Under the pieces are notes generated by a model that did no database searches, was not told the origin of the DNA, and worked only from the letters and a program-made list of their open reading frames with translations. The translations under genes were made by a program, and so were the position numbers. From an uncultured Spartobacteria bacterium (GTDB lineage Bacteria; Verrucomicrobiota; Verrucomicrobiia; Chthoniobacterales; Chthoniobacteraceae): a stretch of DNA of 32,743 nt. The stretch covers positions 1 through 32,743 of the forward strand of contig CAIYUV010000112.1 in the NCBI GenBank assembly GCA_903929475.1, read 5' to 3'. Shown in pieces: positions 779 through 32,705 of this stretch; within the stretch, counting starts at the first letter, position 1, and every line of letters starts with the position of its first letter.

Positions 779-1981
779 ATGGCGAACAGAAATCTAACAA
801 GTGCCAAAAGGGCAAAAAACGATGAGTTTTACACGCAATACGCCGATATTCAGAAAGAGATTGAGGCATATCTTGAATTCGACGCCGATGCATTTCGCGG
901 CAAGGTGGTTTATTGTAATTGCGACGATCCTTATGAGAGCAATTTTTTTCGATATTTTGTGCTCAACTTCAACAAGCTTGGATTGAAACAGCTCATCACG
1001 ACCAGTTACAAACCCTCACCGGTAGCCAACACACAACTGGAGTTGTATGGCGATGACCAAACTCTCCCAAATTCAAAAGGCCGCCCTAAAATAAGTGCCA
1101 ATAAATTCCTCATCAATGAAGTGCATAAAATTGGCAGCGAAAGCGAGTTCAACTTGATGGCTGTGGCCAAGAAGTTAAAGGCAAACAAAAACAACGAATG
1201 GACGCCACTTGATGGCGACGGCGACTTCCGCAGTGATGAATGTATAAGTCTGCTCAAGCAAACTGACATCGTGGTAACAAATCCGCCATTCTCCTTGTTC
1301 CGCGAATACGTTAAGCAGCTTTTTGATTACAACAAAAAGTTTGTGATTATCGGCAACAAGAATGCCATCACTTACAAGGAAACCTTTCCGTTAATTAAAT
1401 CGAACAGGATGTGGGTTGGCACAACAAGCTTCAATAAGGACTTGTTATTTATATCGCCGGAAAAAGTCGAACCTACGAAAATGCCAAAGACCGCAACACG
1501 AATCGTCGATGGTGTTGCATACTTACGATCACCATCAATTTGGCTCACCAATCTCGACCACGGACGCCGTCATCAGCCATTACCACTAATGACGATGAAG
1601 GAGAATTTGAAATACAGTAAGCACAAAGAAATTAAAGGTAAAACAAAGTATTCCAAATACGACAATTACGATGCCATAGAAGTGCCATTTACAGATGCGA
1701 TCCCGAGCGACTATAGCGGAGCCATGGGCGTGCCAGTCAGTTTTTTGGATAAATATAATCCTGATCAGTTCGAAATTTTGGGAACCAGCGATAATGGTCT
1801 AGTTGATGATAAATTCAAAACGACTCCGGGGTTAACAAAGAAATTCGTCGTTGATTATTACGCAGCGGGCGGCACGGGGGCATATAAGGAAGGTAATCCA
1901 ACGGCCGGTATTTATGAGAATAACGTAGCCAAGATGGCGTATAAGCGCATTTTTATTAAACACAAAAAACCCACCAAATGA
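779..1981 (+). CDS. EcoRI-family adenine-specific DNA methyltransferase
   Basis: A 400-residue protein. Its N-terminus ([20 protein letters not shown], then [16 protein letters not shown]) closely resembles M.EcoRI as I remember it, including the DEFYTQY and VYCNCDDP stretches. A catalytic motif IV NPPF of N6-adenine methyltransferases lies near residue 168 ([14 protein letters not shown]). The family transfers a methyl group from S-adenosylmethionine to adenine N6 in a specific DNA site and so protects host DNA. It is somewhat longer than M.EcoRI (about 325 aa). The stop overlaps the next gene's start (ATGA at 1978-1981), implying translational coupling to the DUF262-HNH protein. There is no clear Shine-Dalgarno; the leader is A-rich. 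It is AT-richer than the core genes here, consistent with transfer. The recognition site cannot be deduced. Confidence 0.9.
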
Positions 1982-3147
1982 CACCAACTTTAAAAATCGA
2001 CATCACAGTCAAAGCAATTTGCGACGGGTTTGTTTACAACGAACTGGAAGGCAAAGGGCTTTTCGGTTTGTCTGGAAAGCTGACTATACAGCCGGAGTAT
2101 CAGCGCAACTATATCTATGCTTCCGACGGCGGCAAAAGAGAGACTGCGGTCATTGAATCAGCCCTCAAAGGCTATCCGCTTGGGTTGATATATTTTAACA
2201 AGTTGAACGATGGCAGCCTCGAAGTATTAGACGGGCAACAGCGCATCACCAGCCTTGGTCGTTTTGTGACTGGAAAATTTGCCATCAAAGATGACGACGG
2301 GAATGAGCAATATTTCGGCGGCATGGCAAAAGATAAGATAGCCAAGATATTGGAAACAAAGCTGACTATTTATGAATGCGAAGGCGAGGAAACCGAAATC
2401 AAGCAATGGTTCAAAACCATCAACATTGCCGGGGTTCCGCTCAATGAGCAGGAATTGCTAAACGCAATCTATTCTGGTCCGTTTGTGACGCTGGGCAAGG
2501 CAGAGTTCAGCAACAGTCAAAATGCCAACATCCAGAAATGGAGCGCCTTTATTCGTGGCAGCGCTAATCGACAGGATTTTTTGGAACGGGCTTTGGATTG
2601 GGTGAGCCAAGGCAATATCAGCGATTACATGAGCAAGCATCGCAAAGATAAAAACATCAAAGAGCTTAAAACCTATTTCAACACCGTCATTGACTGGATT
2701 GAGAGCGTGTTTCCCGATGCTGAAAGCGAGATGTGCGGTCTGGAGTGGGGTCGGCTTTACGAAGAATACCACACGAAAGCCTACAATCCCGCAAAGGTAT
2801 TAGCGGACGTGCAAAAGCTCTACTGCGATTCCTACGTCAAAAACCGCAGGGGCATTTACGAATATATTCTCGGGGGATCTAAGGATACAAAATTGCTGGA
2901 TGTCCGAGTCTTTGATGAGGCTACGAAAAAATCCGTTTTTGCAACCCAGTCTAAAAAGGCTGAATCAAAAGATGAATCAAACTGTCCGCTTTGTGCCCTC
3001 GGGCATGACGCCAATAAAACAAAGATATGGAAGCTTGCCGAAATGGATGCCGACCATGTAGCTGCGTGGAGCAAGGGCGGTGCGACAAATGTCAAAAACT
3101 GCGAAATGTTGTGCAAAACACACAATAGGGCAAAAGGAAATAGATAG
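1978..3147 (+). CDS. DUF262 (GmrS/ParB-like) protein with C-terminal HNH nuclease
   Basis: A 389-residue protein whose start overlaps the methyltransferase stop by four bases. The N-terminal third has DUF262 hallmarks: PEYQRNYIY near residue 40, then [12 protein letters not shown], then the signature [10 protein letters not shown] near residue 86. DUF262 domains drive NTP-dependent restriction in GmrSD, BrxU and SspE. The last ~55 residues form a zinc-containing HNH nuclease: a CPLC pair, [12 protein letters not shown], an Asn, and [12 protein letters not shown]. The combination suggests a nuclease, and its coupling to an EcoRI-type methyltransferase suggests the restriction partner of a modification enzyme. 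A modification-dependent (type IV-like) mode is the main alternative. It differs from GmrSD and SspE, which carry DUF1524-type HNH domains. Domain calls are strong; the role is inferred. Confidence 0.87.
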
Positions 3148-3308: not shown

Positions 3309-3857
3309 CTAGATATATTCGTCCCCAACAACGCGCGTCACATATCCGGCGAATTTGTTGGTATCTAAAAAATAGTTTGGATACGCGGCCCTAAGAGCGG
3401 CGACTGATTCTACCGAAACAAGCACAGCGTCTTTATTGTCACCACGAATCTTCTCCTCGATTTCCAAGTAGTCTTGAGATGCCCGATCTAGAAGTTTTGA
3501 AGGATAGCCAGTAATTTTGATGGTTTTATTTGCAGCATCCAAAACCATCAAAAAGTAATGAGCATTTGGGGGCGCTGTATCAAGTTGCTGCAATGCCGAT
3601 CCGTATGTTTGTAATCTGGACCGAACGTCTAGCGATTGTGCATACTGTCTTACCTCTTTTCTGATGTCATCTATGTTATCAGGAATGCCGGGGACTTTGG
3701 GTGTGTTTTCAATATGAGCCAGCACTCCCGACATTAGCGCAAAAAACCTCAGCCAATCTCTTTCACCTTGGCTCGATTTCAACGCCTGCCGAATGAATGT
3801 TCCCACCGTTTCTACTGCGGTTGCCCAAACGTGCTGCATTTGCGATCTGAGCTGCAC
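3309..3857 (-). CDS. C-terminal fragment of the RelA/SpoT-domain protein
   Basis: This is the in-frame continuation after the TAA. The nearest possible restart is a GTG at 3857 with no visible ribosome-binding site, so separate translation is doubtful. It starts inside the EVQLRSQMQHVWA block and continues with the alpha-helical region (TVGTFIRQALKSSQGERDWLR) and a C-terminal domain ending in AAYPNYFLDTNKF, as in intact relatives. It ends at a TAG at 3309-3311. Confidence 0.5.
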   Translation of the reverse strand: MQLRSQMQHVWATAVETVGTFIRQALKSSQGERDWLRFFALMSGVLAHIENTPKVPGIPDNIDDIRKEVRQYAQSLDVRSRLQTYGSALQQLDTAPPNAHYFLMVLDAANKTIKITGYPSKLLDRASQDYLEIEEKIRGDNKDAVLVSVESVAALRAAYPNYFLDTNKFAGYVTRVVGDEYI

Positions 3858-3863
3858 TTCGAT

Positions 3864-4340
3864 TTATAGGCCATTGTAGGTAGTTTTTCGCTCACTGATG
3901 TAGCGATAAACTAAATGGACGCCACGGTAGCCAGAAGACTTGGGCGATTTTATGTAATCATCGCAATTTGAAAGCTTGTGACGAATTCGACTCGAAAGAA
4001 ACTTTTTCGCAAGGATTTCGACCTCTGAAACTCCTCTCATTACAGCGCGGCATCCTCCTATGTCCTGCATCATGGAAAGTCGCATAGAGGGGAATCTCTC
4101 AAGTTTTGCCGTGATAGAAGATAGCCTCTTTATCCGTTGAGCAATAATGCACTCGGGATCAATAATTCGCGCCCGCTTTCGCAAACTATCTTGAAATATG
4201 TTCAGAGGGTAATTGTGGGCAGATCGCCAGTTCCCGATGATTTCAAGAGATTGGAGCATGGAGCCCATGTCCTCGGACACGAGATCGCTGCCTGCCCTAT
4301 CTACTTGGGTTTTTGAATACCGAGGGACTGCCCATGCCAT
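3864..4340 (-). CDS. N-terminal fragment of the RelA/SpoT-domain protein
   Basis: This is the open part of the interrupted gene before the TAA. The frame can be extended to a codon at 4382, but the residues upstream of MAWAVPRYSK do not look like the family, so ATG 4340 is preferred. It holds the substrate-binding half of the synthetase domain (KLERFPSMRL, MQDIGGCRAV, GYRGVHLVYRY) and ends at YNGL, just before the block with the catalytic Glu. The fragment should therefore be inactive on its own. Confidence 0.6.
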   Translation of the reverse strand: MAWAVPRYSKTQVDRAGSDLVSEDMGSMLQSLEIIGNWRSAHNYPLNIFQDSLRKRARIIDPECIIAQRIKRLSSITAKLERFPSMRLSMMQDIGGCRAVMRGVSEVEILAKKFLSSRIRHKLSNCDDYIKSPKSSGYRGVHLVYRYISERKTTYNGL

Positions 4341-4791
4341 ACAGCGACAAAATACAGGGCGGGCAGCAGCCTTGGAAATCAAAATTTATGGAATCATTCC
4401 ACATTTTTAACCACTCCGCCCCGTCACGGGTTTCTATCTCTGTTGTTTCCATGTGTGTTTTAAGTATATAATTACCCTGATTTCGGGCAGTTCCGTTGGG
4501 GCTCATTGGGCGAATGGTGCGTGTCATTGCGCATCCTCAGGGACTCATTTTCGGCGTTCGGGTTGAGGCGTTCTTGCTTATAACAGGCTTTTCATTTGCT
4601 TATGGGGTGAGTGGGCGGATGTTGGAGCCATGAATACGAAACCCTGTTCATCACGGCCCCGTCGGGGCAGGCTTTGGCGCTGAGGATGTGGGAGCGTTGC
4701 CGGGGGCGGTAGGTTTGGCAGGTCGGGCGAAGGGTTTTTTCGGGGAAAAGGCGGGTTCTTCTCTGTTGGGCGGGGTTTCCGTAGCGTCGGA
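4341..4791. other. Non-coding stretch between the island and the palindrome array
   Basis: I find no convincing gene here. The minus-strand frame 4297-4527 has no recognisable content and mostly overlaps the N-terminus of the RelA/SpoT gene. An AT-rich patch around 4455-4480 (AAGTATATAATTACC) is the likeliest place for a promoter of the minus-strand RelA/SpoT gene, but no clean -35/-10 pair is evident. Composition turns from AT-rich to GC-rich at about 4560-4620, which I take as the right edge of the transferred segment. Confidence 0.4.
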
Positions 4792-5116
4792 GGAACATTC
4801 CTCTTTGAAGAAGGAACATTCCTTTTTGCGTTTGGAACATTCCTCTTTGAAGAAGGAACATTCCTTTCTGCATTTGGAACATTCCTCTTTGAGGAAGGAA
4901 CATTCCTTTTCGCGTTTGGAACATTCCTCTTTGCACAAGGAATGTTCCTCCAAGGCTGCGGAAGGTTCCAAGATGGCTCGGGAGGCTTTCACGATGGCGA
5001 TGGAGGGCGCGTCCCAGCGGGAGGAAAGGGCGACTTTTTGTGAGGTGAACGCTTTGCGCCGGTGGGGGTCGGGTTTCCCGGCTCCCTGCGGACAGTTCGA
5101 GAAAAACACAACATAG
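4688..5116 (+). CDS. Doubtful ORF spanning the 21-bp repeats (heptad-repeat peptide)
   Basis: A 142-codon frame from GTG 4688 translates the 21-bp array as a perfect heptad pattern (EHSSLKK, EHSFLRL, repeated). The unit length is divisible by three and contains no stop, so other frames and the opposite strand stay open as well (a GMFLLQR-type repeat on the minus strand). There is no ribosome-binding site, signal peptide or known domain, and the parts outside the array are low complexity. It ends 12 bp before the fibronectin-III gene. I think the DNA repeat is more likely the functional entity, but a coiled-coil-like peptide cannot be excluded. Confidence 0.2.
   Translation: MGALPGAVGLAGRAKGFFGEKAGSSLLGGVSVASEEHSSLKKEHSFLRLEHSSLKKEHSFLHLEHSSLRKEHSFSRLEHSSLHKECSSKAAEGSKMAREAFTMAMEGASQREERATFCEVNALRRWGSGFPAPCGQFEKNTT
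4792..4990. repeat. Phased array of GGAACATTCC palindromes, 21-bp period
   Basis: GGAACATTCC begins at 4792, 4813, 4834, 4855, 4876, 4897 and 4918. The reverse-complement form GGAATGTTCC follows at 4939, and degenerate units start at 4960 (GGAAGGTTCC) and 4981. Spacing is exactly 21 bp, with a 42-bp higher-order alternation of two spacer types (TCTTTGAAGAA-like and TTTTGCGTTT-like). The core is a near-palindrome centred on CA/TT. The array lies directly upstream of the fibronectin-III gene at 5129. Confidence 0.95.
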
Positions 5117-5816: not shown

Positions 5817-5852
5817 AAGCCGCACGGCTCGCGCTGTGCGGCTTTGTTTTTT
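5817..5852 (+). terminator. Intrinsic terminator after the fibronectin-III gene
   Basis: AAGCCGCAC and GTGCGGCTT form a 9-bp GC-rich stem around a 10-nt loop, followed by TGTTTTTT. It lies 47 bp after the Fn3 stop codon and has the classical form. Confidence 0.85.
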
Positions 5853-14376: not shown

Positions 14377-15003
14377 CTAGCCCGCGCTGCCGCGACCGTA
14401 AATGCCGAGTGCATTGCGGTCGGTGATGTTGCCATAGTCGGAAGCCTTGAGCAGTTCGTAGTGAATGAGCGTGTCCACTTTCGCCACGCGCTGCCCGAGC
14501 AGGCTGAGGTGCGTCGCATCCGCCGCGAGCACGTCGCGCAGCGAGGCGGTGTTCGTGCCGACTTGCGTTTTAAAATTGGCAAACGTCCCCGCCCACGCAT
14601 CTGCGCCCATCCGCACCGGGCGCAATGTCTGGCTCTGGGCGTCCCAGTCCAACAAGTCATTCGTCGAACCCACGGGGAAGAGATCGAAGTGCGAGTAAAA
14701 ATGCGGGCCCACGCGGATGGGCTCGTAGAGCACTTCGATGCGCCCGTGCGCACCCGGAGCGAGAATGCCCGCCGGGCCATCGGAGCTGATCGCCATCACC
14801 TCGAAGATGTCGTTTTCAAAACCCTCGTCCGTCGTCAGGCGGAACTTGGCATTGTCGCTCATCAGCGTGAGAAACTGCGCCGGGATGTCCGTCTCTCCCG
14901 TGTTCGAGTATTCAATCACCGCACTCACACCACGGAATGGCGGGCGACCCACGTTGGGCACAACGAGATTGTAGCTGAATGTGCCCGCCTTACCGTGATT
15001 CAC
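14377..15003 (-). CDS. Linker fragment of the giant surface protein before the RHS region
   Basis: The frame resumes after the 10-bp duplication (VNHGKAGTFSYNLVV) and ends at the TAG at 14377-14379. The ~208 residues include IEYSNTGETDIPAQFLTL and LAPGAHGRIEVLYEP, typical of the extracellular linker that precedes RHS shells in large PVC proteins. They end in LGIYGRGSAG, where a Trp-containing block normally opens the RHS region. The annotated start would be a GTG inside the duplication, so this is not an independent gene. Confidence 0.6.
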   Translation of the reverse strand: MNHGKAGTFSYNLVVPNVGRPPFRGVSAVIEYSNTGETDIPAQFLTLMSDNAKFRLTTDEGFENDIFEVMAISSDGPAGILAPGAHGRIEVLYEPIRVGPHFYSHFDLFPVGSTNDLLDWDAQSQTLRPVRMGADAWAGTFANFKTQVGTNTASLRDVLAADATHLSLLGQRVAKVDTLIHYELLKASDYGNITDRNALGIYGRGSAG

Positions 15004-18000
15004 CGTGATTCACCGTGAAAGCGCCGGGCAGCGTGGCCTGTGTCGCGCCGTCGCTGGCGCGAACGTCGTAGCTGCCGAGGCCGAGACTGTGCAAATCGAA
15101 CGTCACCCATGCCGTGGCACCATCCACAAAAGTGACGCTGCTCGCGGGCTGCACGGTGCCTCCGGAGACGAGACTGAAAGTCGTTGACGGAGTGAAAAGC
15201 GAGCCCCGGATAATCGTGGTGACGCTCCCGAGATCGGAGCCGTGATTCAGCGAAAGAGCCGCCGCGCCAAATGGCAGCCCCTTCGCAGTGAGTGTGAAAT
15301 TTTGCCCGCCCGCCGCCGCTTCGCGCCCGTGTAGCAGGACGTAAAATGTGCCAAAGCCGCCGTCGTAGCGCGTAATGTCCGCCGAAGTCTGGCTGAGTGA
15401 AAAATCCTTCGCGTCAAAAGTCGCCAACGTAGGCACATCATTCCGCTGGATATAAAGCTCAGCCTCGCCTGCTAGCGCGTAGAGTGCGTGAAAATTTGGC
15501 GTCTGTCCCGTCGGCAAGTCCACACGGAAATACAAGTCCTGCCCGGCGGCGATGGTGCCATTGAGAGCCACGTCCGGCGTGAGCGCGGGCACGCTCAACG
15601 AAAAGGTCGCGGCACTCGCCCCGGTGTTATTCGTGCGGTCACGGTCAGGCACATTACCGCGACTGTCGGCGATGACGATGACGTGATAATACCCGTCCAC
15701 TGCTCCCGGCAGCGGAGCAGTGAGTGAGCCGTTGTAACTCGTGTGCCCGGCGAGCGCTCCGGTGTGCGTCACGCGCCCGATGAGCTTGTCGCTCGCATCG
15801 AAAGTGCCGTCCAACGAGAGATAGACCGAGTCCGTCCACGAGCTTGCCAGCGTGATGGCGTCGCTCGTGTTTTCGATCGTATAGTTCACGGTAAAATTCT
15901 GCCCCGCCGTGCCGCTCGCACCGCTGGTGACTGCCGTCGTCGTGAGATCGCTTGCATCGATGAGCGCGGTGAGAACGAGGTTCGTATCGCCGAGCACGGG
16001 ATCGAAGGCCGTCACACGCCCGATACGCGGTTGGTCGTATTCGGCAAAAAATCCAGTGCGCGAGGTGAACGTCATCAGCGTGAATTGCTGCCCCGTGAGC
16101 GGCCCGTAGCCATTTGCCAGCTCCACGCCCGCCGTGCCCGCGAGCGTCGCAACGCCGGAGATGTTTAATTTTCCAAACGCCCCGGTCGCAGGCGTGCCGC
16201 CAATGACGAAGAGCACCTCACCGCTGGCCGTATTCGTAAAACCAGCGCCCGCCGTGACTGTCGTGCTCGCGCCGATGCGGAGCAAACCGGAGTTCGTAAA
16301 ATTCGCAGTGAAGCCGCGCGATGCGCCGTCGAGGAATTCCAACGTGCCGCTGTTTTGCGAGAGCGTGGTGCCGAGACCCACGAAGTTCGCATTGCCATGC
16401 AGGCGGATCGTTCCCGCGTTCGTCGTGAGCGTGGGTGAGCTGAGGTCCAGCGTCGCGCCCGCCGCCACATCCCACGTCCCGCCGGCGAGCGTGCTGCCGG
16501 AGATTTGCGCCACGGCGGAGAGCACGAGCGAGCCGCTCTCGACTTCCACGGTGCCGAGATTTGAAAACGGAACGCCGCCCGTGAAGAACTGCCCGGAGCC
16601 GCTGTGGCGGAAAATTCCGCCCGTCTCCACCACCAGCCCCACACCCGCGTAATTGCGAAATTGGTAGCCATTGGCGCTATTCACGGTGTGGAAAAGACCG
16701 CCGTCCTGCACCCGCAACTCCGCATTCGCCGAGGTGAAATCGAGATACGCAGTGCCATTCACGATCACGCCCTTGTTGAGCAGCAGCGTGTTGAGATTTG
16801 GCTGACTGTCGTCAATCTGGATCGTGCCGAGATTCGTCCACGTCCCGCCCGATAGATTCGCATCCCCGCCCCACGAAAAAATGCCGGGATCAAAATTCAG
16901 CGCCGCATCCGCGCCCGCCGAGAGCGTGCCTGCGCCAAAGCGCACCGTGCCTGGGCCCGCGCTGCTGAGCTTGCCATTCACCGCGAGGCTCGTGCCATCG
17001 AGGTAGAGCGTCTTACCCGCCGCGACCGTGAAAATCGCGTTCGTGAGCGAACCGCCACTGTTGAGTTGGATGTAGCTCTCTGTGACGTCCACCGTGCCGC
17101 CGGTGACGTTGATGGGCACGCCGCCCGTGAAGAAATAGCCGGTTCCGCTATGCCGAAAAATGCCACCGTCCTCCACGAAAACACCCGGCCCGCCGTAGTT
17201 GCGGAATTGGTAGCCAGCACCCGTATTTGCTGTGTCGAAAACACCGCCATTGAGCATCCGCAATTTACCACCTGCGGTGAAATCCAAATAAGCATCACCC
17301 TCGGTAATCGTGCCCAGATTAACCAGCTCGGTGTTGAGGTTCGGCTGCCCATCCGGGATCTGGATCGTGCCCGTATTCGTCCACGTCCCGCCCGAGAGAT
17401 TCGCATCCCCACCCCACGAAAAAATGCCCGTCGAAAAACTCAGTGTCGCATTCACACCCGCCGTCAGCGTGCCCGCGCCAAATCGCACCGTGCCTGCACC
17501 CGTGCCCGTCAGCGTGCCGTTCACCGTCTGGCTCGTGCCATCCAGATAGAACGTTTTACCCGCCGCCACCGAAAAAATCGCGTTATCCAAAGTCCCGCTG
17601 GTATTGAACTGAATGTAGCTATCCGTGATCGCCACCGTCCCGCCGTGAATGTTAATCGGCACGCTGCCCGCGAGAAAATAGCCGCTCCCGCTGTGGCGCA
17701 AAACGCCACCACTTTCCACCGTCAAACCCGGCCCGCCATAGTTCCGAAATTGGTAGCCAGCACCCGTATTGGTGATGTCGAAAAGCCCGCCATTCAGCAC
17801 ATGCACTTCACCGCCCCCGTTAAAATCTAAATACGCCTCGCCCTCGGTGATCGTCCCCGCATTGATCAGCAGCGTATTGAGGTTCGGCTGCCCATCCGGG
17901 ATCTGGATCGCGCCCGTATTCGTCCACGTCCCGCCCGAGAGATTCGCATCGTTGCCCCACGAAAACTGTCCCGCCGGAAAATTCAGCGTCACATTCGTCC

Positions 18001-19012
18001 CCGCCGTCAACGTGCCGGTGGCAAAGCGCACCGTGCCAGCACCAGTGCCGCTCAGCGTGCCATTCACCGTGAGATCCGCGCCATCCAAATAGAGGGTCTT
18101 ACCCGCCGAAACCACAAAACTCGTATTCGTCAAAGTCCCGCTGCTATTGAGCTGGAGCGATCTCCCAGTCACCTCCACCGTCCCACCGAGAATGTTAATC
18201 GGCACGCCGCCCGTGAGGAAATAGCCGGTTCCGCTATGCCGAAAAGTGCCGCCGTTTTCCACCGTCAAACCCGGCCCGCCGTAGTTCCGAAATTGGTAGC
18301 CGTCGCTCGTATTGGCGATGTCGAAAAGCCCGCCATTCAGCACATGCACCTCACCGCCACTGTAGAAATCCAAATACGCATTCCCCTGTGTGATCGTCCC
18401 CGCATTATTCAGCCGCGTATACAAATTCGGCTCGTTATCCGCGATCTGGATCGTCCCGGTATTCGTGAACACAGCACCCGCGAGCGTCGCATCCCCTCCC
18501 CACGAAAAAAGTCCCGCCGGAAAATTTAGCGTCACATTCGTCCCCGCCGTCAACGTGCCGGTGGCAAAGCGCACCGTGCCAGCACCAGTGCCGCTCAGCG
18601 TGCCATTCAGCGTATGCGTCGTCCCATCCAGCAAGAGCGTCGCGCCCGCCGAAACCGCAAAACTCGCATCCGTCAAAATGCCGCCGCTATTCATCTGGAA
18701 CACGCTCGCCGTAACATCCACGAGCCCCCCCGTCACATTCACCGGCACGCCGCCCGTAAAAAAACTACTCGCTCCGCTGTGCCGCAAAACGCCCCCACTT
18801 TCCACCGTCACTCCCGGCCCACCGTAATTCCGAAACTGGTAGCCAGCACTCGGATTCGCCACATCGAAAAGCCCGCCGCCCAGCACATGCACTTCCCCGC
18901 CCCCGTAGAAATCCAAATACGCATCCCCCTGCGTGATCGTCCCCGCATCCAGCAACGTGCCTGTGAGATTCGGCTGCCCCCCAGCAATCAAGAGCACGCC
19001 CTCATTCCGCAC
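14990..19012 (-). CDS. Repeat-rich middle fragment of the giant surface protein
   Basis: A 1340-codon open frame whose apparent GTG start at 19012 is simply the first codon after the poly-G frameshift. Residues 1 to ~850 are tandem 181-residue repeats containing NAGTITEG-AYLDF, GGEVHVLNGGLFD, GYQFRNYGGPG, RHSGSGYF, AGKT-YLDG and GTGAGTVRF. Around residues 1040-1140 is a CARDB-like domain (VNYTIENTSD ... VYLSLDGTFDASDKLIG ... VPDRDRTNN). A PPC-like stretch (DLYFRVDLPTGQ, LYIQRNDVPTL, YVLLHGREAAAGG) and an IPT-like stretch follow. The frame stops right after the 10-bp duplication at GAFTVNHGESR. A beta-helical, cell-surface structure is likely. Confidence 0.7.
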   Translation of the reverse strand: MRNEGVLLIAGGQPNLTGTLLDAGTITQGDAYLDFYGGGEVHVLGGGLFDVANPSAGYQFRNYGGPGVTVESGGVLRHSGASSFFTGGVPVNVTGGLVDVTASVFQMNSGGILTDASFAVSAGATLLLDGTTHTLNGTLSGTGAGTVRFATGTLTAGTNVTLNFPAGLFSWGGDATLAGAVFTNTGTIQIADNEPNLYTRLNNAGTITQGNAYLDFYSGGEVHVLNGGLFDIANTSDGYQFRNYGGPGLTVENGGTFRHSGTGYFLTGGVPINILGGTVEVTGRSLQLNSSGTLTNTSFVVSAGKTLYLDGADLTVNGTLSGTGAGTVRFATGTLTAGTNVTLNFPAGQFSWGNDANLSGGTWTNTGAIQIPDGQPNLNTLLINAGTITEGEAYLDFNGGGEVHVLNGGLFDITNTGAGYQFRNYGGPGLTVESGGVLRHSGSGYFLAGSVPINIHGGTVAITDSYIQFNTSGTLDNAIFSVAAGKTFYLDGTSQTVNGTLTGTGAGTVRFGAGTLTAGVNATLSFSTGIFSWGGDANLSGGTWTNTGTIQIPDGQPNLNTELVNLGTITEGDAYLDFTAGGKLRMLNGGVFDTANTGAGYQFRNYGGPGVFVEDGGIFRHSGTGYFFTGGVPINVTGGTVDVTESYIQLNSGGSLTNAIFTVAAGKTLYLDGTSLAVNGKLSSAGPGTVRFGAGTLSAGADAALNFDPGIFSWGGDANLSGGTWTNLGTIQIDDSQPNLNTLLLNKGVIVNGTAYLDFTSANAELRVQDGGLFHTVNSANGYQFRNYAGVGLVVETGGIFRHSGSGQFFTGGVPFSNLGTVEVESGSLVLSAVAQISGSTLAGGTWDVAAGATLDLSSPTLTTNAGTIRLHGNANFVGLGTTLSQNSGTLEFLDGASRGFTANFTNSGLLRIGASTTVTAGAGFTNTASGEVLFVIGGTPATGAFGKLNISGVATLAGTAGVELANGYGPLTGQQFTLMTFTSRTGFFAEYDQPRIGRVTAFDPVLGDTNLVLTALIDASDLTTTAVTSGASGTAGQNFTVNYTIENTSDAITLASSWTDSVYLSLDGTFDASDKLIGRVTHTGALAGHTSYNGSLTAPLPGAVDGYYHVIVIADSRGNVPDRDRTNNTGASAATFSLSVPALTPDVALNGTIAAGQDLYFRVDLPTGQTPNFHALYALAGEAELYIQRNDVPTLATFDAKDFSLSQTSADITRYDGGFGTFYVLLHGREAAAGGQNFTLTAKGLPFGAAALSLNHGSDLGSVTTIIRGSLFTPSTTFSLVSGGTVQPASSVTFVDGATAWVTFDLHSLGLGSYDVRASDGATQATLPGAFTVNHGESR
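14992..15011. repeat. 10-bp tandem duplication causing a frameshift
   Basis: ACCGTGATTC occurs twice in direct succession at 14992-15001 and 15002-15011. On the coding (minus) strand, removing one copy turns GAFTVNHGESR-stop into GAFTVNHGKAGTFSYN, which joins the two neighbouring frames without a gap. Confidence 0.93.
16797..19000 (-). repeat. Tandem 543-bp (181-residue) coding repeats
   Basis: The anchor TTCGGCTG (or a close variant) with a following (A/G)TCTGGATCG recurs at 16797, 17340, 17883, 18426 and 18969, exactly 543 bp apart. Adjacent copies are very similar at DNA level over long blocks, for example the block containing CCCGCCGTAGTTCCGAAATTGG. A diverged further copy lies below 16797. 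This supports recent expansion by duplication and makes the region prone to recombination and to assembly collapse. Confidence 0.93.
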
Positions 19013-26162: not shown

Positions 26163-27707
26163 ATGAAAATACGGCTCTGGCTCATCTCCCTCCTTCTCGT
26201 CGTCAGCCCACTCATGGCGGTAAATAAAATGCCGCCCGCCTCCGTCACCCCGGTCGGCACGCCTGCCACAACGCCTGCCACAACGCCTGCCACAACGCCT
26301 GCCACAACGCCTGCCACAACGCCTGCCACAACGCCAGTCGCAGCACCGGCAATCGCACCAACTGCAACACCAGCCACTCCGCCCATCGTCACCACCATCA
26401 GCACAGCCGGCGGCCCTGTGTTCGTCATCCCGATTCATGGGAAAGTCGGCGAAGCGCAATTCTGTTTTCTGCGTCGTGCATTAAAGGAAGCGCAGAGTGC
26501 AAGCGCCAGTGCGGTCATTCTCGACGTGGACACCTTCGGCGGAGACGTGGATTCAGCGATGGATGAAATGGACGCCCTTCTCGCCACGCGCATCCCAACC
26601 ATCGCCTACGTCAATACAAAGGCCATCTCCGCCGGCTCGCTCATTTCTCTCGCAGCAAAACGCATCTATATGCACCCGAACGCCGTCATCGGCGCGTCCG
26701 CAGTCGTCGGCGGCGAGGGCGAAGATTTAAGAGAAACGATGAAGGAGAAAAGCACCTCGATGGTCGTTGCGAAGGCGCGAGGCACGGCGAAAACAAACGG
26801 ACACCCCGAGGATGTCGCCGAGGCATTTGTCCGAAAAGAAAGCGAACTGAAGCGCGGCGAAGTGAGCCTGGATACGAAGGACACGCTCCTCACCCTCAAT
26901 GCCGCCGACGCAACAAAGCTCTACGACGGTCAGCCGCTTCTCGCAGCAGGCACCGCCGAGGATCTCGACAGCCTGATGAAAGTCGCCGGCCTCACCGGCT
27001 TAGTGCGTCACGTCGAGCCAAGCGGATTTGAATCCATAGCATCATGGCTCATCACCTTTGCGCCACTGCTCCTCGGCATCGCAATCACCTGTGCCTACAT
27101 CGAAATGAAGGCACCCGGATTTGGCCTTCCCGGCATCACATCACTGATCTGCTTCGGGCTGTTTTTCAGCGCGCACTTCATCGCCGGACTTGCCGGATGG
27201 GAATCCGCTGTCGTCTTCGTCATCGGATTCACGCTGGTCATCTGCGAAGTTTTCCTTCATCCGGGAACCATCATCCCGGGCCTCATCGGCGTCCTCCTCA
27301 TGCTCGGCTCGCTCGTCTGGGCGATGGTGGATCACTGGCCGGGAACACCCGCATTTCCTTCGAGCAAGGAACTCGAACGCCCCATGCTAAACATCATCTC
27401 CGCGATGATCGGCAGCGGCATCGCCATGGCGCTTGTTGCAAAATATCTTCCGAAGATACCCCTCTTCAACCGCCTCATCTTGAGCGCCGCATCCGCAGGA
27501 GGGCCCGCAATTACGATCCCGGTCGTCAATCTTACCGTTCAAGTCGGCGAAACCGGCACCGCGACCACCACGCTTCGGCCGTCGGGAAAAGCCACCTTCG
27601 GCTCCGCAGTCCATGATGTTGTCACAAACGGCGACTTCATTTCGGTCGGCACCAAAGTGCGCGTCGTGAGCACCGACGGAATGCGCGTGGTCGTCGAGGC
27701 GGCGTAA
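26163..27707 (+). CDS. NfeD-family membrane serine protease (ClpP-class plus OB domain)
   Basis: A 514-residue protein. After a signal peptide ([19 protein letters not shown]) comes a Thr/Pro/Ala-rich linker encoded by a 12-bp repeat. Then a ClpP/SppA-like protease domain: [40 protein letters not shown] with the nucleophile Ser, and [14 protein letters not shown]. Next are four or five membrane helices ([39 protein letters not shown] and others) and a C-terminal NfeD OB-fold ([20 protein letters not shown] ... [11 protein letters not shown]). This is the long NfeD1b type, thought to act in membrane protein quality control, often with an SPFH protein. No SPFH gene is adjacent here. It is convergent with the PilT-like gene. 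Confidence 0.92.
26261..26332 (+). repeat. Six 12-bp repeats encoding a Thr/Pro/Ala linker
   Basis: GCCTGCCACAAC or its phase equivalent starts at 26261 and every 12 bp to 26321, giving six near-identical copies that encode repeated TPAT. It lies between the signal peptide and protease domain of the NfeD protein. Copy-number change would alter linker length without breaking the frame. Confidence 0.93.
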
Positions 27708-30095: not shown

Positions 30096-30908
30096 ATGAA
30101 TCGCATCCTCGCCATCCTCTCCACATCCATCGTCCTCGTCGCTTTCGCCGAAGACAAACCCGAGCCTCTCGGTTTTCAAAACACGCCGCTCATCCCCGGC
30201 ACGAAATGGCATGTGAATGACGGCGAGCGTCCGCAGCCGAAAATCGTCACGCCCGGCGAGCCCAGCACGCAGGCGAAAGCGGGCACTGCTCCCAGCGATG
30301 CGGTCGTTCTTTTCGACGGCACGGATGTCAGCAAGTGGCGCAAGGCAAACGGCAAGCCCGCTGAGTGGAAGGTCGAGAACGGCTACATGGAGGTAACGCA
30401 CACAGGCGACATCTGGACGCGTGAAGAGTTCGGGCCGGACGTGCAGTTGCACCTCGAGTTCGCCACACCGCCGCCACCGACAAAAGGCCACGGGCAGTTC
30501 CGCGGAAACAGCGGCTGCTTTCTCTACGGTCGCTACGAAATCCAAATCCTCGACAGCTACGAAAACAAGACCTACCCCGACGGACAGGCCTCCGCCATCT
30601 ACGCCCAGATGCCCCCGCTCGTGAACGCCTCACGCAAACCCGGCGAGTGGCAGACCTACGACATCGTTTTTGAAGGCCCGCGCTTCAACGCCGATGGCAC
30701 CGTCGCCAAGCCCGCCGTAGCCACCGTGCATCACAACGGCGTGCTCACGCAAAACCACACCGTCCTCATCGGCCACACGCCTCCGCGTGAAGTGGGCAAA
30801 TACACCAAGCACGGCGAAAAAGGCCCCATCAAACTCCAGGACCACGGCGACCCAATGCACTTCCGCAACATCTGGATCCGCGAAGTGAAGCCCGTGGACT
30901 CGCAGTAA
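30096..30908 (+). CDS. Secreted DUF1080 (3-keto-disaccharide hydrolase-like) protein, copy 1
   Basis: A 270-residue protein with signal peptide MNRILAILSTSIVLVAFA. The DUF1080 concanavalin-like beta-sandwich starts near residue 68: VVLFDGTDVSKWRKANG, EWKVENGYMEV, then EEFGPDVQLHLEFATP, RGNSGCFLYGRYEIQILDSY, and the end [21 protein letters not shown]. The family binds and hydrolyses oligosaccharides, including 3-keto-glucosides, and is strongly expanded in PVC bacteria. It probably acts in the periplasm or outside the cell on plant or algal sugars. It is closely similar to the next gene, including the leader (CTCGTATATCCCGCCT before ATG), so the pair arose by tandem duplication. No Shine-Dalgarno is visible. 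Confidence 0.92.
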   Translation: MNRILAILSTSIVLVAFAEDKPEPLGFQNTPLIPGTKWHVNDGERPQPKIVTPGEPSTQAKAGTAPSDAVVLFDGTDVSKWRKANGKPAEWKVENGYMEVTHTGDIWTREEFGPDVQLHLEFATPPPPTKGHGQFRGNSGCFLYGRYEIQILDSYENKTYPDGQASAIYAQMPPLVNASRKPGEWQTYDIVFEGPRFNADGTVAKPAVATVHHNGVLTQNHTVLIGHTPPREVGKYTKHGEKGPIKLQDHGDPMHFRNIWIREVKPVDSQ

Positions 30909-30938
30909 TAACCAGCCTCACCTTTTTGAACCGCAGGT

Positions 30939-30993
30939 GTGACTGGTGACTGGTGATTAGTGACTGGTAGGACGCCCACCAGTCACCAGTCAC
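30939..30993. repeat. Perfect 17-bp inverted repeat between the DUF1080 copies
   Basis: GTGACTGGTGACTGGTG (30939-30955) is exactly complemented at 30977-30993. The 21-nt spacer contains a further direct copy of GTGACTGGT. The hairpin sits after the stop of copy 1 and ahead of the leader of copy 2, without a T tract. A related TCACTAGTCAC run is found around 23746-23770 upstream of another gene pair. Confidence 0.85.
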
Positions 30994-31055
30994 CTCCTAT
31001 TTTCCCAAATAAGACTTCCCTAAGTTTTCCCCATCTACTCGTATATCCCGCCTCT

Positions 31056-31862
31056 ATGAATCGCATCCTCACCATCCTCTCCGCATCCATCGCCACCGTC
31101 GCTTTTGCCGACGACAAACCCGCGCACCCGCTCGGTTATCAGGACACGCCCATCATCCCCGGCACCAAGTGGCACGTGCATGACGGCGAGCGCCCGCAGC
31201 CCAAAGTCGTCACGCCCGGCGAACCCAGCACACAGGCCAAAGTCGGCACCGCACCCAGCGACGCAGTCGTCCTATTCGACGGCAAGGACGTGAGCAAATG
31301 GCAGAAGGGAAAAGGCCAGGACGCCACGTGGAAAGTCGAGAACGGTTACATGGAAGTCCACGGCGGCGACATCATGACCCGCGAAGAATTCGGCCCCGAC
31401 GTCCAGTTGCACGTCGAATTCGCCACCCCGCCCGCCTCCGGCAACGGCCAGGGCCGCGGCAACAGCGGCGTCTTCCTTTACGGCCGCTACGAAATCCAAG
31501 TCCTCGACAGCTACCAAAACCCCACCTACCCCGACGGCCAAGCCACCGCCATCTACGGCCAGACGCCCCCGCTCGTGAACGCCTCCCTCAAGCCCGGCGA
31601 ATGGCAGACCTACGACATCATCTTTGAAGGCCCGCGCTTCAACGAAGACGGCACCGTCGCCAAGCAAGCCATCGCCACCGTCCTCCACAACGGCGTCGTC
31701 ACGCAAAACCACACCATCATCACCGGCGAAACCCCGCACCGCGCCATCGGCACCTACCACAAACACGGCGAAAAAGGCCCCATCAAACTTCAGGATCACG
31801 GCAATCCCATGCACTACCGCAACCTCTGGATCCGCGAACTCAAACCCGTGGACTCGCAGTAA
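31056..31862 (+). CDS. Secreted DUF1080 protein, copy 2
   Basis: A 268-residue paralogue of the preceding gene, from ATG 31056 with signal peptide MNRILTILSASIATVAFA. The 32-codon upstream extension of the frame lies in the intergenic hairpin and was rejected. The same domain order is present: VVLFDGKDVSKWQKGKG, TWKVENGYMEVHGGD, RGNSGVFLYGRYEIQVLDSY, PLVNASLKPGEWQTYDIIFE, and the end [20 protein letters not shown]. Differences are scattered, so the copies have diverged and are both intact. A strong terminator follows. It is the better match to the downstream remnant. Confidence 0.92.
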   Translation: MNRILTILSASIATVAFADDKPAHPLGYQDTPIIPGTKWHVHDGERPQPKVVTPGEPSTQAKVGTAPSDAVVLFDGKDVSKWQKGKGQDATWKVENGYMEVHGGDIMTREEFGPDVQLHVEFATPPASGNGQGRGNSGVFLYGRYEIQVLDSYQNPTYPDGQATAIYGQTPPLVNASLKPGEWQTYDIIFEGPRFNEDGTVAKQAIATVLHNGVVTQNHTIITGETPHRAIGTYHKHGEKGPIKLQDHGNPMHYRNLWIRELKPVDSQ

Positions 31863-31883
31863 CCACCCACTTCAAACCCGAGA

Positions 31884-31920
31884 AAGGAGCGGCGGCTAAA
31901 AACCACCGCTCCTTTTTCTT
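31884..31920 (+). terminator. Intrinsic terminator after DUF1080 copy 2
   Basis: AAAGGAGCGGCGG and CCACCGCTCCTTT form a 13-bp stem with one G-A type mismatch and a 7-nt A-rich loop, followed by TTCT with further Ts. A copy of its left arm and loop reappears at the right end of the window after the DUF1080 remnant. Confidence 0.85.
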
Positions 31921-31943
31921 TGGTCAGCTTCTTTCGATGGATG

Positions 31944-32243
31944 CTACTCCACGGAGAAATACTCCGGCGTGATTTCACGCGCGCCGTGGAGAACACGGAT
32001 GAGTTGAATGCCGTCGCTCACTGGCCGGTAGAATATCAGATAGTTCCCGACTGGAAAGATGCGAAGGTTCGGAGCCAGTTCGTCAGCACTGCGGCCTAGC
32101 AGCGGATGGATGGCAAGAGTTTCAAGTTTCGCGTCGAATTGATGCAAAAGCTGCTCGGCGGCGTCTGCATTTTTCGGGGCGATGAAGTGCCAGATTTCTT
32201 CATAGTCGAGACGCGACTCCTGCGTGCGGTAGATGCCCGGCAT
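31944..32243 (-). CDS. ParE/RelE-superfamily toxin
   Basis: A 99-residue protein with the compact RelE/ParE fold: RLDYEEIWHFIAPKNADAAE, QLLHQFDAKLETLAIHPLLG, RIFPVGNYLIFYRPVSDG, and IQLIRVLHGAREI. The conserved end IRVLHGAR is typical of ParE, whose members poison DNA gyrase; RelE-type mRNA cleavage is less likely because the catalytic basic triad is not evident. It starts 5 bp after the stop of the upstream RHH antitoxin gene on the same strand, the usual antitoxin-first order. The pair lies between DUF1080 copy 2 and a DUF1080 remnant. Confidence 0.87.
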   Translation of the reverse strand: MPGIYRTQESRLDYEEIWHFIAPKNADAAEQLLHQFDAKLETLAIHPLLGRSADELAPNLRIFPVGNYLIFYRPVSDGIQLIRVLHGAREITPEYFSVE

Positions 32244-32248
32244 TGGCG

Positions 32249-32527
32249 CTAATTGGCAGCCTGCATCGCGGCGAGTTTCTTTCGTCCCTCGGCAACAATG
32301 TCCTGCGCGGAAAATTGGACAAACTCCCCGCGATCCGCCTGCTCGATACCGACCTGCACCTTGGCACGGAGTGCGGCAATGCGCTGCTCGCGGACGTTCT
32401 CGCGCACCTTCAATTCCGAGAGCGCCTCGGCCACCGCTTCGCTTTTGGTGAGAAACCGCCCGGACTTCACGATCTCATCTAGGAAGTGCTCGTCCTCGTC
32501 CCGGAGTGTGATTGCGACTGTTGTCAT
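32249..32527 (-). CDS. ParD-like ribbon-helix-helix antitoxin
   Basis: A 92-residue protein from ATG 32527 ([20 protein letters not shown]). The longer frame to 32629 runs into the DUF1080 remnant and was rejected. The N-terminal ~45 residues form a ribbon-helix-helix DNA-binding domain: a short beta-strand, then [20 protein letters not shown] and ALSELKVRE. The acidic C-terminal part ([20 protein letters not shown]) would wrap the toxin. ParD proteins neutralise ParE and repress their own promoter, which here should lie around 32530-32560 in the AT-richer bases before the start. Confidence 0.85.
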
Positions 32528-32561
32528 GCGGGCAATATACCACGCAGCATTCTCGAATTGC

Positions 32562-32705
32562 AAGGGCACCGACCAGACACACCGGCAGGTGAATGCCTCG
32601 CTCAAGCACGGCGAAAAAGGCCCCATCAAACTCCAGGATCACGGCAACCCCATGCACTACCGCAACCTCTGGATCCGCGAACTGAAACCCGTGGACTCGC
32701 AATAA
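32562..32705 (+). pseudogene. Internally deleted remnant of a third DUF1080 copy
   Basis: ACCAGACACACCGGCAGGTG resembles the stretch of copy 2 encoding GQTPPLV and is followed by VNASLK. The sequence then jumps straight to [20 protein letters not shown] and ends with VDSQ and TAA. The missing ~60 codons lie between two short direct repeats (CGGCGAA in CCCGGCGAA and CACGGCGAA) of copy 2, so deletion by short-repeat recombination is likely. The 5' part of the gene is absent and the ParDE pair stands in its place. Confidence 0.85.

Follow-up and report, generated by a model that had tools for sequence, protein, structure and literature searches.

Plasmid-origin iterons are direct repeats of ~17–22 bp whose cooperative binding is lost on a half-helical-turn shift (PMC4980987). 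In ToxIN loci, tandem repeats precede the gene for a small protein, a hairpin separates the two, and the repeat varies by cluster (PMC8860590). REP and BIME sequences are extragenic palindromes of 20–40 bp dispersed in bacterial genomes (PMC3733652); REPs lie mainly 3' of genes, form consensus families within a genome and are in some cases linked to tyrosine transposases. Bacterial intergenic minisatellites (VNTRs) are head-to-tail repeats of variable copy number. Here we describe a 21-bp repeat array in a 32,743-nucleotide stretch (the window) of an uncultured Spartobacteria bacterium (Verrucomicrobiota), for which, by analogy, the iteron array would be the nearest known working principle and the type III toxin–antitoxin locus the nearest layout. 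The array appears to be one copy of an undescribed, non-protein-coding DNA element that lies just upstream of a small fibronectin type III (Fn3) gene in three phyla (Verrucomicrobiota, Acidobacteriota and Bacteroidota) and that appears to keep its two-helical-turn spacing while its letters change by locus. No description of the element was found in the family libraries and the open-licence literature; an earlier account elsewhere is possible.

Between positions 4792 and 4969, units follow one another in exact 21-bp steps: seven copies of GGAACATTCC (exact starts at 4792, 4813, 4834, 4855, 4876, 4897 and 4918), one of the reverse complement GGAATGTTCC (4939) and one of GGAAGGTTCC (4960). Sites with at most one mismatch to the motif number 11 in the window against 2.4 expected, a count reached by none of 100 shuffles. 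TRF describes the array as 7.6 copies of period 21 (71% matches) or 3.8 copies of period 42 (90% matches) and follows degenerate 21-bp units past the canonical ones, gene-ward to ~4998. Pattern counts and TRF thus bear out what an earlier note had read from the letters, namely near-palindromes every 21 bp with a 42-bp higher order and one reverse-complement unit; its remark that the array can be translated in several frames on both strands also holds, five of the six reading frames being open throughout. The dyads of this array are bond-centred on GGAA-CA-TTCC, with a base-centred one 10.5 bp off. The letters themselves are peculiar to the locus: the array sequence has no second occurrence in its own genome, the GGAANNTTCC triplet at 21-bp spacing is absent from 146 relatives, and GGAACATTCC arrays as a dispersed exact motif were rejected, the exact-motif search having matched the window locus alone. 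The recurring feature is the 21-bp dyad architecture, not the letters. The parts of the element in the window are:

4568–4690 (+): conserved segment 5' of the array; 76–80% identity over 103–123 bp to the own-genome copies C217 and C138, at the equivalent position relative to their arrays
4630–4683 (+): micro-ORF of 17 codons, MNTKPCSSRPRRGRLWR and a stop, in three copies (C112, C217 and C138)
4714–4781 (+): second conserved flank, directly 5' of the array; 82–87% identity to C216 and C180 in alignment
4792–4949 (no strand): 21-bp dyad array with a GGAACATTCC core, 7.5 units and a 42-bp higher order (TRF and pattern counts)
4950–5012 (no strand): 21-bp units in degenerate form, on the gene side of the array (GGAAGGTTCC, GGAGGCTTTC and others; TRF 4954–4998, period 21, and sequence)
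5031–5091 (+): conserved block in the array–gene interval, common to most own-genome copies and to the solo loci C180 and C216
5129–5770 (+): Fn3-family gene, 213 aa, helical N-terminal domain and one fibronectin type III domain (Pfam, AlphaFold2, Foldseek)
5817–5844 (+): intrinsic-terminator-like hairpin at the 3' end of the repeated element; 12-bp stem, then a T-run

The 213-aa protein matches Pfam fn3 (PF00041) with 27.3 bits against a cut-off of 25 (E = 4e-6), and 20 of 29 family members match fn3 at E <= 0.01. AlphaFold2 predicts for the window protein a helical N-terminal domain and an Fn3 sandwich (pLDDT 90), with the relative placement of the two domains uncertain (pTM 0.52). Foldseek and other structure searches, viral structures included, matched the Fn3 half alone; the N-terminal domain by itself gave no match in the PDB with E < 0.001, NCBIfam held no good model for the protein, and Pfam and the structure searches returned no recognised DNA-binding domain. 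Many Verrucomicrobiota members carry an in-frame N-terminal segment, WDGxDxQGNPLRWDTPGLTWDG, 5' of the start used in the window, where the matching stretch is cut off by a stop; the array lies 5' of this segment. Judged by its sequence, the block at 5031–5091, which reads ...CEVNALRRWGSGFPAPCGQFE..., is likely a relic of that segment; it also contains a stem-loop, GGGGGTCGG-GTTTC-CCGGCTCCC, at 5064–5086. Assignment to a defence system was rejected, PADLOC having returned a single weak match.

With a relaxed pattern, other 21-bp dyad arrays were found in the same genome, and one of them, at C90, lies directly 5' of a second, frameshifted Fn3-family gene; we therefore gathered the family by protein alone and examined the upstream regions. 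Approximately 100 non-redundant relatives of the downstream Fn3 gene were picked solely by protein similarity, the contig scan using alignment A2, since the wider A1 was too diverse. Protein matches number ~9 in the window's own genome and are present in 32 of 197 relatives; the scan of genome contigs yielded 66 loci, distributed over Verrucomicrobiota, Acidobacteriota and a single Bacteroidota genome, and more Bacteroidota members were added separately. No relatives were found in 72,556 plasmid and 50,697 phage records. Many of the loci stem from metagenome assemblies that are fragmented. One of them, L145, belongs to a bin titled 'Klebsiella pneumoniae' with an Fn3 locus close to the Verrucomicrobiota ones, and the title is probably wrong.

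A 21-bp tandem array lies upstream of nearly all own-genome copies and of most others, with a unit that differs per locus. Calling an array at a score of at least 25 in a 1-kb region across non-redundant loci, we found arrays in 64 of 96 upstream regions (56 of these 64 having exactly 21, 42 or 63 as their best lag), against 8 of 95 downstream and 1 of 52 far-upstream control regions; about one-third of family members are without a clear array. The best lag within the range 16–27 is 21 in 70 of 74 regions, that within 36–48 is 42 in 66 of 72, and TRF found 81 arrays whose period is a multiple of 21 in 98 kb of upstream sequence, compared with 10 in 512 kb elsewhere. The position directly upstream of an Fn3 gene, which the earlier note had reported for this one array, is thus general across three phyla, with a different unit sequence each time. 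With regard to its question of whether arrays of the motif always precede Fn3 genes, an array stands before 64 of 96 genes of the family, and the letters occur nowhere else in exact form; the random placement that it had named as the contrary outcome was not found. Upstream of the family we also often observed 7- and 8-bp microsatellites (for example, GCGTTCC and GAAGGAT) at about −580 to −860 relative to the Fn3 gene, in loci L080, L089, L108, L116, L126, L129 and L150.

The units tend to read the same on both strands, so that each contains two dyad centres, 10.5 bp from one another. In the arms, at offsets 2–9 counted from the base-centred dyad, bases are paired more often than expected from permutation; the three central bases and the two opposite ones are free. 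Across 65 arrays the dyad symmetry reaches a Stouffer z of 18 (8.4 in Bacteroidota alone), with the window's array by itself borderline (P = 0.06); because related loci and the units within an array are not independent, these z-scores overstate certainty, and the permutation nulls retain composition and repeat structure but not dinucleotides. When units were aligned on their dyads by rotation, a Verrucomicrobiota consensus emerged, TCCGTGTCGGACAAAGCTTTC, or about TCCG-nnn-CGGACAAAGnCTTTn, with 5.5 bits of information compared with 3.15 ± 0.09 in column-permuted arrays. Learned on Verrucomicrobiota, it was recovered in held-out Acidobacteriota arrays (Stouffer 6.5) but not in Bacteroidota arrays (0.7), which keep the period and dyads alone; all three phyla thus have the dyads and the period in common, but only two the degenerate sequence. 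Lags of 21 and 42, dyad symmetry and consensus together support the same-face arrangement of palindromes on B-DNA that had been suggested from the window alone, in the form of helically phased dyads acting at the DNA level. Intrinsic bending was not supported, a 10.5-bp A/T periodicity being absent, and the 21-bp units carry a mild period-7 A/T harmonic.

Among own-genome copies, homology runs from ~120 bp before the gene to ~75 bp after it, where the terminator-like hairpin lies, and resumes 5' of the array. The hairpin is common to copies C55, C217, C174 and C90, and inter-copy homology stops nearby. The second flank (4714–4781) recurs also at C200 and at the array-only loci C216 and C180; the differences in the micro-ORF among C112, C217 and C138 are, judged by eye, mostly synonymous, and a conserved micro-ORF was looked for but not found in lineages other than the window's. 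Flanks and gene are kept and the array between them is strongly diverged, with the arrays of copies that have a common flank alignable in register by eye, and across the family array similarity increases with protein identity (Mantel P = 0.003), on which grounds we consider the arrays to be inherited with the gene and to drift by within-locus homogenisation. In the close relative G007 (C59, L300), the sequence matches the window only from 5837 onward, at the right end of the element, with 90% identity downstream; a clean empty site was rejected there, since the left side is unrelated, which makes the junction a breakpoint and not a clean site of insertion. Several contigs of the window's genome end within such arrays. 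The contig pairs C90/C132 and C289/C138 (G000) have their ends inside arrays, and each pair is probably one assembly-broken locus.

The array is thus a hereditary companion of the Fn3 gene family, situated in its 5' region, with DNA-level constraint on period and dyad symmetry and with letters free to drift through within-array homogenisation. We give an even chance to the reading that a 21-bp dyad array and a small helical-plus-Fn3 gene make up an element dispersed in the chromosome, that the array is its variable part, and that the array serves as a phased binding platform. On such a platform a protein would sit on one unit after the next along the same face of the helix; this putative binder, probably dimeric because its sites are dyads, could control or organise the downstream Fn3 gene. 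The locus-specific unit sequence would be hard for one sequence-specific factor; the binder might be the Fn3 protein itself or a partner, and a nucleoid protein that reads shape and tolerates changed letters is a further candidate. By analogy the array would work most like an iteron-like phased binding-site array in the 5' region of the Fn3 gene: its direct repeats are likewise phased near two helical turns, as the lags of 21 and 42 indicate. Unlike iterons, however, the arrays are chromosomal, occur in up to ~10 copies per genome, have locus-specific sequences and consist of 2–20 dyad units, and unlike an iteron origin they have no adjacent Rep gene but an Fn3 gene as companion, from a family absent from the plasmid and phage collections.

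A wider proposition, which we hold somewhat more tentatively, is that of a widespread undescribed element in at least three phyla, in which a helical-Fn3 protein is paired with a self-homogenising array whose geometry rather than sequence is inherited, and in which the protein or a partner would recognise the shape of the array or co-evolve with it. If true, a gene family known only for its Fn3 domain has a DNA-geometry partner invisible to gene callers and domain searches, and the array would be a bacterial case of non-coding DNA under selection for its period and symmetry but with changing letters. The element might also account for 21-bp minisatellites that have so far gone unplaced and for the breaks between contigs in assemblies of Verrucomicrobiota.

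A serious rival to the phased platform, possible if on the doubtful side, is that the array travels with a multicopy Fn3 element as a satellite, selfish or neutral, expanded and homogenised by slippage of hairpin-forming single strands, so that period and dyads would reflect its mode of growth and no function. Such growth fits the homogenisation within arrays and the rapid divergence between loci, the hairpin-prone single strands that dyads imply, the array-only loci (C216 has the unit of C55, and that of C180 is related to C200) and the pseudogenised copies (a frameshift in C90, an internal deletion in C200 and a stop in the array of C174). It fits less well with the other tandem repeats at family loci, which have different periods and less symmetry (21-bp arrays are more dyad-symmetric than other tandem arrays in the same loci, P = 0.0035), and with a period of 21 kept in three phyla and nearly always 5' of one gene family. 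Compensatory double changes in the arms, at 111 of 218 compared with about one-third expected, also speak against it, although the units that they come from are not independent. The arrays share with VNTRs their head-to-tail repeats of variable copy number and differ in having one period and a dyad symmetry that follow a single gene family through three phyla. Unlike REPs, the arrays are upstream, sequence-variable and period-locked, with locus-specific units in place of one genome-wide, mostly downstream consensus, and no transposase was observed next to the window's copy.

A type III toxin–antitoxin-like locus, with the repeats as processed antitoxin RNA and the Fn3 protein as toxin, is very improbable. 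Its layout is shared to the extent that tandem repeats lie directly 5' of a small protein gene with a stem-loop between them in own-genome copies (a sigma-70 scan recognised no promoter), and the repeat sequence is locus-specific, as in ToxI clusters (PMC8860590). Arms paired in RNA predict that sense-strand G.U should be commoner than A.C, yet G.T and A.C mismatches in the paired arms number 364 and 342 (per-array P = 0.86; a cruder earlier wobble count gave 289 versus 214, with the arrays split 23 to 23), and folding energies, computed without pseudoknots, did not differ between the two strands (P = 0.78). Because neither wobble pairs nor folding energies show a strand bias, the dyads are not sense-RNA stems, and sense-RNA hairpins were rejected. 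Rfam returned no family at gathering score, with sub-threshold microRNA matches alone. The protein, for its part, is of a different fold, helical plus Fn3, with Pfam matching fn3 only and Foldseek Fn3 domains only, and without a match to a ToxN/AbiQ-type endoribonuclease; the repeats are 21-bp dyads, up to ~20 units, rather than ToxIN's pseudoknot repeats.

Likewise highly unlikely is a coding array, translated into a heptad (coiled-coil) leader protein that is coupled to the Fn3 gene. In the window's own lineage a frame stays open through most arrays, ending ~12–20 bp before the Fn3 start with a conserved tail, and this frame is open in 7 of 9 arrays, so that translation may occur there; in arrays of other lineages the Fn3 frame is open no more often than expected (22 of 56, expectation 23.7), and no frame is preferred. 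Within-array variation shows codon-position bias at P < 0.05 in only 1 of 49 arrays, open frames are as common on the sense as on the antisense strand (66 versus 63), some family arrays have no sense frame open, and some have higher-order units of 40, 41, 43 or 62 bp, which are near whole helical turns and not multiples of three. On these grounds a protein-coding array was rejected, and the coiled-coil minisatellite that the earlier note had listed among its options was not supported; the single conserved frame with mostly synonymous changes, which it had named as contrary to a DNA-level reading, was not found. The array behaves neither as coding sequence nor as folded sense RNA; an element acting at the DNA level is favoured by the absence of wobble bias and codon-position bias and by those higher-order units that are not divisible by three.

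Several other features of the window were recorded. Just left of the element, at 779–3147 (+), an EcoRI-type adenine methylase (Pfam EcoRI_methylase, 397 bits) is followed by a GmrSD_N/HNH nuclease-like gene, and the pair is probably a restriction–modification system by its domain content. At 3309–4382 (−), a small RelA/SpoT-domain protein (172 aa) adjoins a 182-aa ORF of unknown function, in what could be a toxSAS-like toxin–antitoxin pair. A 10-bp repeat, ACCGTGATTC, is present in 2.7 copies at 14992–15018, where the minus-strand ORFs 14377–15003 and 14990–19012 overlap; slippage or a frameshift at this site may split a very large gene. A perfect 12-bp tandem repeat at 26259–26335 encodes TPAT-type repeats near the N-terminus of ORF 26163–27707, with the other strand also open. 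Finally, two similar tandem genes at 30096–32705 end in ...[ND]PMH[FY]RN[IL]WIRE[VL]KPVDSQ, with a stray third copy of the tail at ~32600–32705.
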